A stretch of DNA of 64,000 nucleotides, from assembly GCA_018827375.1 (NCBI GenBank), contig JAHJYW010000014.1:62001-126000 (forward strand). The letters run 5' to 3'. A program made the translations under genes and the position numbers. Below are positions 3,421-9,942 of this stretch, one piece after another. The stretch comes from Alphaproteobacteria bacterium. Its GTDB lineage: Bacteria > Pseudomonadota > Alphaproteobacteria > Caulobacterales > Hyphomonadaceae. The notes below the pieces were generated by a model. It did no database searches. It saw nothing but the letters and a program-made list of their open reading frames with translations, and had not been told where the DNA came from. The first letter of the stretch is position 1, and every line of letters starts with the position of its first letter.

Positions 3421-4215
3421 TCAGACCGCAACGGGCGCCTTGATATGGGCGTGGGGCGTGTAGTTTTCGACCTTGAAGTCCGCGTATTCCCAGCCGAAGA
3501 GATCAGTCTTGTCAGGATTGAGCGTGATCGAGGGCAGGGCGCGTGGTTCACGCGTAAGCTGCAGCTGTGCCTGCTCGATATGGTTCAGGTAGAGGTGGGC
3601 ATCACCGAACGTATGAACGAACTCGCCGGGTTTTAGCCCCGTTGCCCGGGCCATCATCAGGGTTAACAGCGCATAGGATGCGATGTTGAATGGAACACCG
3701 AGGAAAATGTCGGCCGAACGCTGGTAAAGCTGGCAGTTCAACTTGCCGTCCATGACATTGAACTGGAACAGGCAATGGCAGGGCGGCAGGGCCATTTCAT
3801 TTACATCGGCCGGATTCCACGCCGACACGATCAGGCGTCGCGAATTCGGATTCGTGCGGATTTCGTCAAGCACCCACTGGATCTGGTCAATCACGCGGCC
3901 GTCCGGTGCGGCCCAGCTGCGCCATTGTTTTCCGTAGACGGGACCAAGGTCGCCATTGGCGTCTGCCCAGTCGTCCCAGATGGAAACGCCGTTATCTTTC
4001 AAAAACTTGATGTTTGTGTCGCCCTGTAGAAACCACAGCAGTTCCACAATGATCGAGCGCAGGTGCAGCTTCTTGGTTGTGACCATCGGGAAGCCGTCTG
4101 AAAGGTCGAAACGCATCTGGCGACCGAACACGGCGCGCGTGCCTGTGCCTGTCCGGTCTGCCCGCTCAAAGCCGTTTTCCAGGATGTCTGACAAGAGGTC
4201 GAGATACTGTTTCAT
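3421..4215 (-). CDS. thyA: Thymidylate synthase
   Basis: Makes dTMP from dUMP with methylene-tetrahydrofolate. Starting at [10 protein letters not shown] gives 264 residues, the exact length of E. coli ThyA. The active-site cysteine lies in [10 protein letters not shown], and [11 protein letters not shown] and the dUMP-binding [18 protein letters not shown] are present. The listed 546-residue ORF is a false extension running antisense through the neighbouring TadG-like gene. No dihydrofolate reductase gene follows. The upstream gap is shared with the divergent TadG cluster. Confidence 0.97.
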
Positions 4216-4368
4216 GCGGGCCTCGCGTGCGATTCGTTGGTTAAAGATATTAACACAAACTTGCTTCCAATGACCAACATTCAGGCATGCGACGAACCAA
4301 ATTGAATGAATATTATGAAATAGATGCTTTCGTATCCAAGAGATAATCACGCTGGGGCAGGTACGACA

Positions 4369-5724
4369 GTGAAATCGACAAAGTTGAATAGTCTGATGAA
4401 CCGTTGGCGCGCTGAGACACGCGGCAATATCGCCATTATTTTCGCGCTGTCTATCATCCCGATTCTCTCCATCGTCGGCGTCGCAATCGATACGCAGATG
4501 ACGATGACCCAGAAGAACAAGGTGCAGTCTGTCATCGACAATGCCGTCATCTACGGCTCGCGGTCGATGCAGGCAGGAAAATCCCGCGCCGATGTGACCA
4601 AGGAAGTGAATACTTACGTTGCTGCACTGCTGAAACAGCAGAGCAGCACACTGACCTGCACAGGCGTTGCGCTTCAGTATGTTGATGGCAAGCAGGACCT
4701 CAACGCCACCATCCTTTGCGCCCAGCCGACGACACTGTCGAACCTGTTTGGCCAGACCAAGATGGAGTTTCGCGTCCAGTCGGGGTCGACCTATGGTATC
4801 GGCAAGCTGGAGGTCGCCTTCGTGTTCGACGTCTCCGGCTCGATGCGCAGCAATGGCAAGATGGGTGACCTGAAGGTTGCGGCGCGCAATGCTGTCGATA
4901 CGTTGATGCCGCCTGACGTCGAACTTACCAATCCTGATGATGTGCGCGTTGCGATGGTGACTTATGACACCAAGGTAAATGCTGGCGCCTATTTCGAGGA
5001 CGTGACGAACAAGAAGGCAAAACGCACAATCTACCACACCTATCGTCAATGCCGGTATCAATGGGGTAGCTATTGCTACGGTGGTTATACCAACGTGACG
5101 GTGTCAACGCAGGTCAACAACTCATGCGTACAGGAACGGCTGGGCTCGCAGGCATTTACCGATGACGATCCGGGCCCAAGTGCCTGGCTGGAAGCCGCGG
5201 ACCCTGTGTTCGATGAATACTACGGGAGATGGTCGAGCATCCCTTCGTGCAATGACATTGGCCCTCAGCCTCTGACGAGCAAACGCAGTGATCTCTACGC
5301 CTATATCAATGATCTCGACGATTATGGAAGTACGGCCGGACATATGGGCGTGGCCTGGGGCTGGTACCTCCTGGCGCCGAAATGGAGTTCGGTGTGGCCT
5401 TCTGCGTCCAAGCCGCTGCCCTATGACGAGCCGGATGCGACCAAGGCCATGATCATGATGACCGATGGCGAATTCAACGCCTACTATAGTGGCAATACGC
5501 AGGGTAATTCCTTCCAGCAAGCCCAGAAAATGTGTGATGCTGCCAAGGCGGAAGGGGTCGTCATTTACACAGTCGCCTTCCAGGCGCCGAAGCAGGGCAA
5601 GGATATTCTGAACTATTGTGCGAGTTCGTCGGACTTTGCGTTCACGCCTGACAATGGCCAGGAGCTGGAAGATGCCTACAACATGATCGCTCAGTCCATC
5701 TCAGACCTTCGCATCACATACTAG
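4369..5724 (+). CDS. TadG-like protein with von Willebrand A domain, copy 1
   Basis: First of three tandem paralogues. The N-terminus ([20 protein letters not shown]) is the single hydrophobic segment of TadE/TadG pilus-assembly proteins, followed by [14 protein letters not shown] von Willebrand A domain begins at [11 protein letters not shown], with the metal-binding DxSxS, and continues to MMTDGEFN. Several cysteines suggest disulfides outside the cytoplasm. The C-terminus [10 protein letters not shown] recurs in all three copies. I chose GTG 4369 because it gives the same leader length as copy 2; ATG 4324 and ATG 4396 are alternatives. Likely a surface-exposed, metal-dependent adhesion or pilus-associated protein. 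Confidence 0.8.
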
Positions 5725-5777
5725 ATGTGAGGAGGGCGTCCCGCGGTCTCGAGCGAGTTTGGTAAACGACCTCTTGC

Positions 5778-5800
5778 GCAGACCTTCGGAAAACGTCTGC
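5778..5800 (+). other. Hairpin between TadG-like copies 1 and 2
   Basis: The arms gcagac and gtctgc enclose an 11-base loop in the 156-base gap after copy 1. There is no T-run. It might be a processing or partial-termination element setting different levels for copy 1 versus copies 2-3, which themselves are only 29 bases apart. Confidence 0.3.
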
Positions 5801-5880
5801 TCTGCCTAACGCGCCGAAAATCTCTATGGGCGATACTGGCAGATGGGAGCGGCCAGAATGGCTGGGTAAGAGGCGCTATC

Positions 5881-7422
5881 ATGTTGGATATTTCGAAACA
5901 TCGGCCTCAGCGCTGTTTCGTGCGAGATGTGCGCGGCAATGTGGCAGCGATTGCAGCCCTTACAATCATTCCTATTCTTTGTATCGTCGGTATCGCCATC
6001 GATTTCCAGATGGCTGTCACCCAGAAGAACAAGGTTCAGTCCGTTATCGACAGCGCCGTGATTGCAGGATCGAAGGCCATGCAGGCCGGCGAAACGCAGG
6101 ACGAGATTCGCCTGATGGTGAAGAACTACGTGAATGCGTTGATCCAGGTTCAGGGCAGTGGCCTGACATGTGAATCGCCAAAGATGACCTTCACGGATGG
6201 CACCCAGGATATTGATGCCAGTATCAGCTGCTCGCAAAAGACCACGCTGTCACAACTGCTCCACCGTGAGACGCTGGATTTCCAGGTCTCTTCCGGCACG
6301 ACCTATGGCGTCGGAAACGTCGATGTCGCCTTTATTTTCGATGTCTCCGGTTCGATGAACTCGAATAACCGGCTTGAAAATCTCAAGACGTCCGCCAAGA
6401 CAGCCTTCGACGAACTCCTGCCCGATGACCGGGAGCTTGATGGCACCGTCCGGATTGCGTTGACCACATATAATGCGAACGTGAATGCCGGCGCTTACTT
6501 TGATAAAGTGACACGCAAGATCACTTTGGGAACGGATTCATCGACTGGCTCCAACTCGGCGAAGTCACGGTATGACGCCTACAACAACCGTGTGCTGATT
6601 GATCAGTCGACAGGAAAGCGCTTCTTCTACTACGAGCGCACGACCTGCAGCTACAACTGCAGCTATAGCAGCAGCTGGACCATAACGCCCAAGCGCCGCT
6701 GGTTCGAGACGGACATTGGCGACAATACATGCGTCTCGGAACGGGTGGGTGTGAATGCCTTCACCGATGCGGCTGGCGGCACGGGCGCTGATGATTCCAT
6801 GATCGTGGGGAACCCGCTCTGGAACTGGAATACCTATATCAGCTACAAGAATAGCGGCTCCAATGAGGTGGAGTATGGCGGCGCCAACTCGTCCAGCGGT
6901 GCGTTCAACCCGACGCCCGCTCAGTGCGAGAACTCGTCGCCCATGCCGCTCACAGAAAATAAGACGCAACTCAAAGCCTATGTCGATGCGCTGCACGCAG
7001 GCGGCGGCACGGCCGGTCATCTTGGCATTGCCTGGGGTTGGTACCTGATTTCGCCAAGCTGGAATTCCATCTGGCCTACGGCCTCCCACCCCTGGCCATG
7101 GGAAGAGCCGGACACCGCAAAGGCCATCATCCTGATGACCGATGGCGAGTTTAACCAGACACACCCATCCGTCAGCAAAAGCTCGATCCAGCTGGCCATG
7201 GAATTCTGTGATGCCATGAAGGAAGAGCCCTACAATGTGCAGATCTACACAGTCGGGTTTCAAGTGCCAAACAGTGCAGCCAAGACACCCAGCGGCGCCA
7301 CCATTCTTGATTATTGCGCAACGGATGCGGGTCACTCATTCACACCAAACAATGGTGAAGAACTGACCGATGCATACCGGGCGATTGCACAGTCCATTTC
7401 GGATTTGCGCATCACACGCTAG
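5881..7422 (+). CDS. TadG-like protein with von Willebrand A domain, copy 2
   Basis: Second paralogue, 513 residues. It has the hydrophobic TadG-like segment (GNVAAIAALTIIPILCIVG) near residue 20 and a von Willebrand A domain opening with VAFIFDVSGSMNS and closing around LMTDGEFN. A central insertion rich in Tyr, Ser and Cys (ERTTCSYNCSYSSSW) is longer than in copy 1. Shared blocks with the others include GGTAGHLGIAWGWYL and the end [11 protein letters not shown]. Export and anchoring in the inner membrane with the A domain outside is the expected topology. Copy 3 follows at 29 bases, so the two are probably co-transcribed. Confidence 0.82.
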   Translation: MLDISKHRPQRCFVRDVRGNVAAIAALTIIPILCIVGIAIDFQMAVTQKNKVQSVIDSAVIAGSKAMQAGETQDEIRLMVKNYVNALIQVQGSGLTCESPKMTFTDGTQDIDASISCSQKTTLSQLLHRETLDFQVSSGTTYGVGNVDVAFIFDVSGSMNSNNRLENLKTSAKTAFDELLPDDRELDGTVRIALTTYNANVNAGAYFDKVTRKITLGTDSSTGSNSAKSRYDAYNNRVLIDQSTGKRFFYYERTTCSYNCSYSSSWTITPKRRWFETDIGDNTCVSERVGVNAFTDAAGGTGADDSMIVGNPLWNWNTYISYKNSGSNEVEYGGANSSSGAFNPTPAQCENSSPMPLTENKTQLKAYVDALHAGGGTAGHLGIAWGWYLISPSWNSIWPTASHPWPWEEPDTAKAIILMTDGEFNQTHPSVSKSSIQLAMEFCDAMKEEPYNVQIYTVGFQVPNSAAKTPSGATILDYCATDAGHSFTPNNGEELTDAYRAIAQSISDLRITR

Positions 7423-7451
7423 CGCGGTGAACACAGGAAGTCGGGGGACCT

Positions 7452-8960
7452 ATGGCAGGCAAGTTAATCAGGCGATGGAGCGTGTCCAATGGGGCCAATG
7501 TCGCTATCATGGCCGCATTGTTCATTCCTGCTATATTGGCACTTGGCGGTGTGGCGATAGACTTTCAGTATACGGTTCGTCAAAAGAACAAGGTACAGTA
7601 TGCGCTGGACTCGGCTGTTCTCGCAGGCGCCCTGTCGCGTCAGGCCGGAGCCAGCGAAGACGTCGTCGAGGCATACATACGCGCCTATACCGAGGCGCTG
7701 ATCGGGCGTCAGGGCGGCGGCATCTCGTGCACGTCGGTGGCGGTGACTTTCAATCCTGACAACAAGGATATCCGTGGCACCCTCCGATGTGACCAGCCGA
7801 CCTTCATGTCCGATCTCATCGGTTTCGAAAAGCTGAGCTTTCCCGCCTCATCGACATCAACTTATGCGGTCGGCAAGGCGGATGTCGCTTTCGTGTTCGA
7901 CGTGTCGGGATCAATGAACAGTTATAATCGCCTCAGCCTGCTCAAATCGGCCGCTGAAGTCGCGTTTGATGAATTGCTGCCCGACGACCAGCCACGCAGT
8001 GGCGAAGTGAGGCTGGCAATTGCCACCTATAACAATGCGGTCAACGCGGGCGACTATTTCAACGCCGTGACGCGCAGCCAAACACTCACAGCCGATGCCA
8101 GCAATTCTGCCGCACGCAGCACCTATGATACGTACAATGGTGCGCGGATGATCGATGCTTCATCCGGCAAACGGTTCTTCTATTACGAACGCGAGCGCTG
8201 CCCTGGCGGATCTTGCACTGGCGAGTGGGATGCCGCGCGCCAGCCATTTGAGAATGCGAGTATTCGGGACACCTGCGTCTACGAGCGCACGGGAAACGAC
8301 GCCGCAACGGATGACGCACCAGGTTCGTCTAAATGGATCGGCGCAGGCAACCCACGCTGGAACTGGTGGACCGGCAATTCCAACAAGCGCAACGGCCAGT
8401 GGGAAATCGAATCCAGCAATGGCGACAGTTCGCGCGGCGCCTATGACATGAGCTTTGCCGATTGTCGGGCGTCAGGCCCGGTGCCGCTGACAGAGGACAA
8501 GGCGGCCCTCAAAGCGCATGTGCAGTCACTTAGTGCGAATGGCGGTACGGCAGGCCATATCGGTCTTGCCTGGGGCTGGTATCTGGTCTCGCCGAACTGG
8601 GCCGATATCTGGCCGGAGCCGTCTACGCCGCTTGAGTACAATACCAAGCAGAACGTCAAGGCTGTCATCCTGATGACGGATGGTGATTTCAATTCCTATC
8701 ATCCAACGGCCAGTAAAAGTTCGTTCCGGCAGGCGCAGGACCTCTGCGACACAATGAAGGCGGCGCCATCAAAGATTGAGGTCTATACGGTCGGCTTCCA
8801 GGTGCCGAGCAATGTGCAGAAGACCGGGGATGGGCGGACAATTCTCGAATATTGCGCCACCACGCCAGCCTATGCCTTCAACGCCACGAATGGCGAGGAA
8901 CTGGCCGCCGCGTATCGCTCAATCGCGCAGTCGATTTCGGAACTCCGTATCAAGCAGTAA
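7452..8960 (+). CDS. TadG-like protein with von Willebrand A domain, copy 3
   Basis: Third paralogue, 502 residues, started at an ATG preceded by tcggggga. The N-terminal segment NVAIMAALFIPAILALGG is TadG-like. The A domain contains [18 protein letters not shown] and ends near LMTDGDFN, so the metal-site residues are intact. It shares FFYYER with copy 2 and GGTAGHIGLAWGWYL with both. Copies 2 and 3 look closer to each other than to copy 1, which fits stepwise duplication. It overlaps the convergent MarR-GNAT gene by 11 bases at the stop codons. Confidence 0.82.
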   Translation: MAGKLIRRWSVSNGANVAIMAALFIPAILALGGVAIDFQYTVRQKNKVQYALDSAVLAGALSRQAGASEDVVEAYIRAYTEALIGRQGGGISCTSVAVTFNPDNKDIRGTLRCDQPTFMSDLIGFEKLSFPASSTSTYAVGKADVAFVFDVSGSMNSYNRLSLLKSAAEVAFDELLPDDQPRSGEVRLAIATYNNAVNAGDYFNAVTRSQTLTADASNSAARSTYDTYNGARMIDASSGKRFFYYERERCPGGSCTGEWDAARQPFENASIRDTCVYERTGNDAATDDAPGSSKWIGAGNPRWNWWTGNSNKRNGQWEIESSNGDSSRGAYDMSFADCRASGPVPLTEDKAALKAHVQSLSANGGTAGHIGLAWGWYLVSPNWADIWPEPSTPLEYNTKQNVKAVILMTDGDFNSYHPTASKSSFRQAQDLCDTMKAAPSKIEVYTVGFQVPSNVQKTGDGRTILEYCATTPAYAFNATNGEELAAAYRSIAQSISELRIKQ

Positions 8961-9906
8961 GCGCGTCGAGCGGATAGGACATGGCGACATCACACCGGTC
9001 ATAGCGCTGGCCATACGTGGCGAGCATACCGGCGTCATGTTCGAAGCCGAGCTTTTCGTAGAGGTGGATGGCAACCGCGCATTTGCGATTCGTAAGCAAA
9101 TAGAGGCTGTTCATCTCCATGGTGCGCGCCCGTTCCAGGGCCTTCGCAAGCAGGAACTCGCCTGACTTGCGGCCCCGCGCCGATTTCAGGACGCCCATTT
9201 TCGTCAGCTCGAAATGACCGTCCTTGACCGGCATCAGTGCGCACGTACCGACAATGCCCAAGCCGCCGGTGGACACGAAAAGGATCATGCCGCCCTTGTC
9301 GATGATCAGTTCGCGCGGGTTGGAAAGGATCGCAATGTCATTGGGTTCCAGCGTGAACATCTCGGAAATCCACTCGGCATTGATGTCGTGGAAAGCACCG
9401 GCGAGATCATCTGAGAATTCAATAAGGGCATGCCCGTTCATCGCGCGGGCAACGAGTGATCTTTCATCGAGCGCGGCTTCGATCCGGGTGATCTGGTCAA
9501 GCAGGCTTGCATCAGGCCCGGCCGCCATTTCCGCGGCGGCCCGGGCGACGTGTGGCCAGACATCGCGCTTCATCCGGGCGACGGCAGCGGTACCCGTTTC
9601 GGTAAGGGAGATCGTTTTCTGGCGGCGGTCCGCGTCGGATACCGTGGTGTCGACAAGGCCCATGTCGATGAGGCCAACAAGGCTTCGGGTCACAGCCGGC
9701 TGGCTCACGCCCAGCGCATCGACGGCCTCACTCACGGTTAACGGGCCATAGCGGTCGAGCGCGGCGAGCAGGGGAAAATGGCTTGGCTGCGTAAGGAAAC
9801 TGTTCTGCTCGAAAATCTGGGTTGCCTCGGCCTGCATGCGTTCGGCGAGGCGCTTCAATCGGCTTCCCAGCGCAAGATAGCCAAGGTCCTGCAATATATC
9901 TGGCAT
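8950..9906 (-). CDS. MarR-family regulator fused to GNAT acetyltransferase
   Basis: One polypeptide with two domains. Residues 1-150 are a winged helix of MarR type (LTVSEAVDALGVSQPAVTRS, then DADRRQKTISLTETG). Residues about 165-318 are a GNAT fold (KMGVLKSARGRKSGEFLLAKAL, NRKCAVAIHLYEKLGFEHDA). Such MarR-GNAT fusions are known, but their acetyl substrates are mostly undefined. I start at the second ATG of ATGATG because ggagggc sits at proper spacing. A perfect palindrome lies just upstream, so autoregulation is likely. Confidence 0.87.
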   Translation of the reverse strand: MPDILQDLGYLALGSRLKRLAERMQAEATQIFEQNSFLTQPSHFPLLAALDRYGPLTVSEAVDALGVSQPAVTRSLVGLIDMGLVDTTVSDADRRQKTISLTETGTAAVARMKRDVWPHVARAAAEMAAGPDASLLDQITRIEAALDERSLVARAMNGHALIEFSDDLAGAFHDINAEWISEMFTLEPNDIAILSNPRELIIDKGGMILFVSTGGLGIVGTCALMPVKDGHFELTKMGVLKSARGRKSGEFLLAKALERARTMEMNSLYLLTNRKCAVAIHLYEKLGFEHDAGMLATYGQRYDRCDVAMSYPLDALTA

Positions 9907-9920
9907 CATGCCCTCCGCTA

Positions 9921-9942
9921 TATACATAACACGTTATGTATA
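9921..9942. promoter_or_regulatory. Perfect palindromic operator of the MarR-GNAT gene
   Basis: Two 10-base arms, tatacataac and gttatgtata, are exact inverted repeats around a 2-base centre. The site ends 15 bases upstream of the chosen start codon and 10 bases downstream of a consensus TTGACA (minus strand, 9958-9953), so bound protein would block the promoter. Size and symmetry fit a MarR dimer. It is about 80-90 bases from the likely ssrA start, so an effect on ssrA is possible but unproven. Confidence 0.8.

Follow-up and report, generated by a model that had tools for sequence, protein, structure and literature searches.

Three tandem genes adjoining thyA (hereafter T1, T2 and T3) in the 64-kb stretch of DNA analyzed here (the window), which comes from a marine Hyphomonas-type bacterium, most probably encode alternative tips for the Tad pilus of a cpa/tad locus located about 48 kb away, in the form of vWA-bearing minor pilins of the TadG/CpaL family. 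The evidence for this assignment comes from the domain content of the three proteins and their intact metal site (MIDAS), the lack of any other TadG gene in the genome, the presence of tad machinery and its co-occurrence with the family across genomes, gene order, predicted fold and the unequal evolution of the copies.

Organization of the three genes

The list of open reading frames in the window contains T1, T2 and T3 as three intact tandem genes on the + strand (Table 1). T1 is numbered here from the GTG start used in the original prediction, and an alternative in-frame ATG at 4324 yields a 466 aa product (4324-5724). Open frames antisense to T1-T3 (e.g., window 6565-7335) were regarded as shadow ORFs. 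All three products pass the Pfam cut-offs for both the Tad PF13400 profile (31.5-35.3 bits, with a cut-off of 22.3) and the VWA PF00092 profile (30.5-44.5 bits), and the recurrence of both matches in three out of three copies indicates that this architecture is not due to chance. These results bear out the original description of three tandem TadG-like vWA proteins. NCBIfam returned only weak matches below cut-off, namely to generic vWA models and to one from Liberibacter. The A-domain metal site is likewise intact, as had been predicted, with the MIDAS residues complete in T1, T2 and T3 (DVSGSM, the T of TAGHxG.AWGW and the D of MTDG).

Other aspects of the predicted architecture required adjustment. 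The motif set DVSGSM, TDGEFN and AQSISDLRI, originally attributed to each copy, holds for T1 and T2, but T3 presents TDGDFN at the metal site and SISELRIKQ at its C-terminus. In all three proteins the vWA domain is interrupted by an insert. The middles do differ between copies, as anticipated, but a Cys/Tyr/Ser-rich insertion is not exclusive to T2 and T3: the middle of T1 is also Cys/Tyr-rich, if about 50-57 residues shorter than in the other two copies. Eight cysteines are common to T1, T2 and T3 in the alignment.

Table 1. Window coordinates of the three tandem genes, their main segments and their neighbors.
Feature	Position	Strand	Description	Evidence
Copy 1 (T1)	4369..5724	+	451 aa from GTG; Tad N-terminus and vWA	ORF, Pfam, AF2
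T1 PF13400 segment	4423..4557	+	N-terminal hydrophobic helix, pilin-like module	Pfam; model helix 17-68
T1 insert	5008..5268	+	87 aa; interrupts vWA domain	alignment, region table
T1 long beta-hairpin	5020..5118	+	two strands of ~15 residues each	model strands 218-232, 235-250
T1 hairpin tip	~5044-5103	+	peak variability in mature protein; two insert cysteines	ortholog alignment
Copy 2 (T2)	5881..7422	+	513 aa; Tad N-terminus and vWA	ORF, Pfam
T2 PF13400 segment	5935..6069	+		Pfam
T2 insert	6514..6945	+	144 aa	
Copy 3 (T3)	7452..8960	+	502 aa; Tad N-terminus and vWA	ORF, Pfam, synteny, AF2
T3 PF13400 segment	7497..7631	+		Pfam; model helix 14-64
T3 insert	8073..8483	+	137 aa	
thyA	3421..4215	-	divergent neighbor, anchors conserved gene order	ORF, synteny
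MarR/GNAT-type regulator	8950..9927	-	convergent neighbor, window's clade only; context, outside the system	ORF, synteny

T2 and T3 are separated by only 29 bp, and are therefore probably co-transcribed. In the intergenic region between thyA and T1 (window 4216-4368), several blocks, such as those near GTTAAAGATATTAAC and CCAAATTGAATGAAT..TATGAAATA, are kept in close relatives and constitute possible regulatory sites. CtrA-like TTAA-N7-TTAA boxes were not found upstream of T1, between the copies or upstream of the Flp gene, and hence a cell-cycle control common to T1-T3 and the tad locus could not be argued. The original prediction turned in part on whether the cluster lies inside, or is controlled together with, a standard tad locus; the cluster is not located inside one, and the scan for a shared CtrA-like box was negative.

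Tad machinery in the genome and its relatives

The host genome (3.6 Mb, 99.9% complete) harbors T1, T2 and T3 as its sole PF13400 genes. On the contig to which the window belongs (C2), a complete tad/cpa locus maps to C2:6.4-18.6 kb, about 48 kb upstream of T1. This locus encodes two TadE proteins, a secretin N-terminal-domain protein, a 60-aa Flp pilin, a CpaA-type prepilin peptidase, CpaB/RcpC, the secretin CpaC, CpaD, CpaE, CpaF/TadA, TadB, TadC and a TPR TadD-like protein, and contains no TadG gene. A second tad-like locus, at C23:49.6-56.6 kb (L043:3593-10564), encodes CpaB2 (RcpC), the secretin CpaC2, an 88-aa lipoprotein-like ORF, CpaE2, CpaF2, TadB2 and TadC2, and lacks Flp, TadE, TadG and prepilin peptidase genes. 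The genome thus encodes, in total, three TadG-like proteins, two TadE and two Flp proteins, and two machinery loci. The earlier observation that no other tad genes accompany the cluster holds for the 64-kb window, in which no tad machinery gene was found, but not for the genome, where the proposed search for tad genes elsewhere returned both loci; the interpretation of the cluster as a stand-alone module was consequently dropped.

Several observations concern the second set of tad genes. Nearly every member of the genus has two RcpC genes, so that a second Tad machine devoid of pilin may be characteristic of the genus. The second Flp pilin gene of the genome is isolated (C9:28820-28957; L181) and flanked by MutT-type hydrolase and methyltransferase-type genes. 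Unlike the genome containing the window, one relative presents a very divergent 642-aa TadG-like gene just upstream of its second tad locus (L075:8586-10517).

The distribution of the family across genomes follows that of the Tad machinery. Of the 61 relatives, 58 have both PF13400 and RcpC/CpaB and 2 have neither; the single relative with RcpC alone is a fragmented genome of about 520 contigs. Among 241 class-level genomes, the vWA-TadG profile, which at weak E-values may catch other vWA proteins, and RcpC were found together in 98, the profile alone in 9, RcpC alone in 10 and neither in 124 (Fisher p about 3e-44, uncorrected for phylogeny). The place of the homolog is listed for 74 of the Alphaproteobacteria genomes, and in at least 37 of these it is located within 15 kb of RcpC, in or beside a tad locus. 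In ten genomes with both genes on one contig, the thyA-linked copy lies 57-78 kb from the main CpaB, although this linkage is not universal.

Gene order, divergence and predicted structure of the copies

A scan of named genomes identified family members in several species of Hyphomonas (H. oceanitis, H. chukchiensis and H. johnsonii, among others), in Henriciella and in Ponticaulis, and more distant members in Hyphomicrobium-type bacteria and Caulobacter. The three Hyphomonas species named each possess T1, T2 and T3. The analysis of synteny in the Hyphomonadaceae suggested with the original prediction revealed that the thyA-adjacent site carries from one to four family copies. T3 orthologs occupy this site in all Hyphomonas regions examined; in Henriciella and Ponticaulis, between one and three members of the family adjoin thyA. 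Orthologs of T1 are singletons found elsewhere in outer Hyphomonas species and adjoin T3 in the clade of the window, to which T2 is restricted. The T1, T2 and T3 lineages part deeply in the inferred tree, with T2 branching beside the entire T3 group. In L054, L055, L056, L057 and L081, CpaL-like copies of 607-737 aa with a DxTGSM metal site adjoin the T3 ortholog at thyA; these copies cluster apart from the others in the tree and apparently replace T1 and T2 in those Hyphomonas species. In another relative (L048:6858-9766), the presence of two T1-type copies results in four tandem genes, and in one of the two the hairpin cysteines are 22 residues apart, with an RG repeat in the intervening loop.

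The three copies have diverged unequally. Among the paralogs in the window, similarity is lowest in the insert, with 24-43% identity versus 43-65% elsewhere. Compared with orthologs in the window's clade, insert identity is 40-53% for T1, 78-89% for T2 and 65-80% for T3, and in all 45 within-clade genome pairs analyzed (four genus clades; pairs not independent) conservation of the insert is lower in T1 than in T3. The core of T1 also evolves somewhat faster than the T3 core. The most variable block of mature T1 spans residues 226-245, where mean pairwise identity drops to 0.26 versus 0.58 overall. The two cysteines in this block are kept in 21 of the 21 orthologs examined, and the loop between them ranges from 4 to 22 residues across species, with Arg, Lys, Trp, Tyr and Gly often abundant in it. 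Positive or diversifying selection on the T1 hairpin was considered and no claim is made for it; because dN/dS is below 0.25 wherever measurable and dS is largely saturated, we interpret the T1 pattern as rapid change under overall constraint and not as proof of diversifying selection.

AlphaFold2 models of T1 and T3, built from alignments of named relatives (pLDDT of 90.7 and 85.5, respectively), present an N-terminal helix of ~50 residues, a small beta module (strands 101-141 in T1 and 97-137 in T3) and an insert-split vWA domain. Structure prediction of the middles, which had also been proposed as a check, resolved the T1 insert as a long two-stranded hairpin (residues 218-250, numbered from 4369), with pLDDT above 90 around the variable stretch, and the T3 insert as a larger element of mixed fold. 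In searches against solved structures, adhesins and tip proteins of pili ranked at or near the top, with SpaC, Mfa5, PitA, RrgA and GBS104 among the best matches by fold and Mfa5, GBS104, PilB and SpaC by profile. The list of matches overlaps with the structural matches reported by Charrouf et al. for CpaL (SpaC, RrgA, Mfa5 and PilB).

Proposed role and relation to known pilus tips

A Tad machine, a pilin and a CpaA-type peptidase are encoded at the C2 locus. We infer that the N-terminal helix of each copy would insert in the inner membrane and undergo processing, and that the copy would then join the two TadE-type minor pilins, likely the counterparts of CpaJ and CpaK, to prime pilus assembly. 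The assembled copy would be carried to the tip of the pilus, acting in trans from its separate locus, and its vWA metal site and insert would there touch a surface or a partner and relay the force of retraction back in a mechanosensing role. The existence of three diverged copies and a single TadE pair suggests exchangeable tips, which would allow one machine to display different tips. The conserved inserts of T2 and T3 would reflect a ligand or a sensing function that is itself conserved, and T1 would contribute a fast-changing, Cys-closed hairpin finger.

One alternative to a Tad-dependent role, and the reading originally put forward, is that the cluster operates as an adhesive or sensing module of its own, without a Tad pilus. 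The window contains no tad machinery gene and the orphan position is conserved in the genus, as such a module would have it, but the same genome and contig hold a complete tad locus devoid of TadG, the family co-occurs with RcpC and has homologs inside tad loci elsewhere, and an independent secretion or anchoring route is not apparent. We hence regard it as very improbable. It is also unlikely that the copies serve different machines, with some assigned to the main Tad pilus and others to the C23 tad-like locus or to a pilus built from the orphan Flp on C9. The near-universal presence of two RcpC genes in the genus, a C23 locus without Flp, TadE or TadG, a second Flp gene standing alone and the distant TadG-like gene that does sit in the second locus of L075 speak for such a division of labor. 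T1-T3, however, have no positional link to the second locus; their cluster shares a contig with the main tad locus, and the spacing between the thyA-linked copy and the main CpaB recurs in ten genomes.

Functional equivalence of the copies, retained for dose or by chance, would fit their common domain plan and the short gap behind the probable co-transcription of T2 and T3, but is quite improbable given that the paralogs are far less alike in the insert than elsewhere and that their lineages part deeply and evolve at different rates. The low similarity of the middles and the different interspecies rates indicate, at the level of sequence, that the three proteins are probably not merely redundant. 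The same two features lend partial support to the original proposal that the copies may be specialized for different targets. A broader scheme, in which a single Tad machine shows one of three vWA tips, the Cys-closed hairpin of T1 is a contact finger diversifying between species under changing partners or pilus-binding phages, and T2 and T3 retain a sensing or adhesive function that is conserved, is put forward here tentatively. It may be objected that the T1 hairpin is loose, weakly constrained sequence instead of a contact surface and that a three-tip scheme over-reads drift. The saturated dS, the low dN/dS where measurable and the faster core of T1 are in line with this objection, but the invariant pair of cysteines and the confidently modeled long hairpin argue against it, and we consider it doubtful.

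The interpretation of T1-T3 as alternative tips of the Tad pilus can be set against known systems. The TadG proteins of tad loci, a tip component in current models, have the same PF13400 N-terminus and a vWA-type C-terminus, but T1-T3 lie outside the tad locus and number three. A vWA domain with a MIDAS is also carried at the pilus tip by SpaC, RrgA and GBS104 of Gram-positive bacteria, Mfa5 of Porphyromonas and PilB of S. sanguinis; those proteins belong to other pilus types with other modes of assembly, and the similarity is confined to the vWA fold. The closest parallel is CpaL of Caulobacter crescentus (CCNA_0199; PMC12607857), a vWA minor pilin of the Tad pilus that is implicated in surface sensing and whose orphan gene is not part of the pilus cluster. 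CpaL combines a pilin-like module with a vWA domain that has a DxS/TxS, T, D metal site and is split by a beta-rich insert, displays similar structural matches (SpaC, RrgA, Mfa5 and PilB), and has been modeled at the pilus tip (PMC12607857) together with CpaJ and CpaK (PMC12607857; PMC13170226). The surface-sensing role originally suggested for the cluster is supported in kind, but was already on record for the family (PMC12607857).

T1-T3 nonetheless depart from CpaL in several respects. They are three tandem, thyA-linked genes as opposed to one, they are shorter (451-513 aa versus about 620 aa), and their inserts of 87-144 aa, a hairpin in T1, differ from the two six-stranded barrels of CpaL (~180 aa). 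The homolog identified in Caulobacter, which resembles CpaL in length and MIDAS spacing, shares only ~30-40% identity with T1-T3 over the C-terminal part. Domain content, fold, metal site and genome context place T1-T3 in the TadG/CpaL family, but they do not qualify as strict CpaL orthologs, given their different insert and the separate grouping of the CpaL-like copies (607-737 aa) of other Hyphomonas species. Alternative tips have been described in the Kil Tad pilus of Myxococcus, where four alternative Tip complexes encoded in separate clusters serve one Tad pilus through several TadG-like proteins with variable exposed C-terminal domains (PMC12075869). The Kil tips, which serve in predation, are complete TadE/F/G-like sets, whereas here the TadG-like part alone is multiplied alongside one TadE pair.

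The gene family, its location away from the pilus genes, a tip with a vWA domain and a role in surface sensing were thus already known, as were alternative tips in another lineage. The papers searched on Hyphomonas Tad and TadG yielded no earlier description of the triplet, of its linkage to thyA or of the variable, Cys-closed hairpin of T1. The new elements here are a thyA-linked cluster of one to four tip genes, which is conserved throughout Hyphomonas and also occurs in Henriciella and Ponticaulis, and the unequal evolution of its copies. Orphan tip genes are usual in this group, and the lack of tad genes nearby should not be taken to mean that a gene of this family stands alone. These findings bear on how the tip of the Tad pilus recognizes surfaces and transmits force, a question for which CpaL was proposed as a sensor only in 2025. 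Three divergent proposed tips, one conserved across the genus and one fast-changing, offer a natural experiment, in which the variable hairpin of T1 points to a possible contact site.
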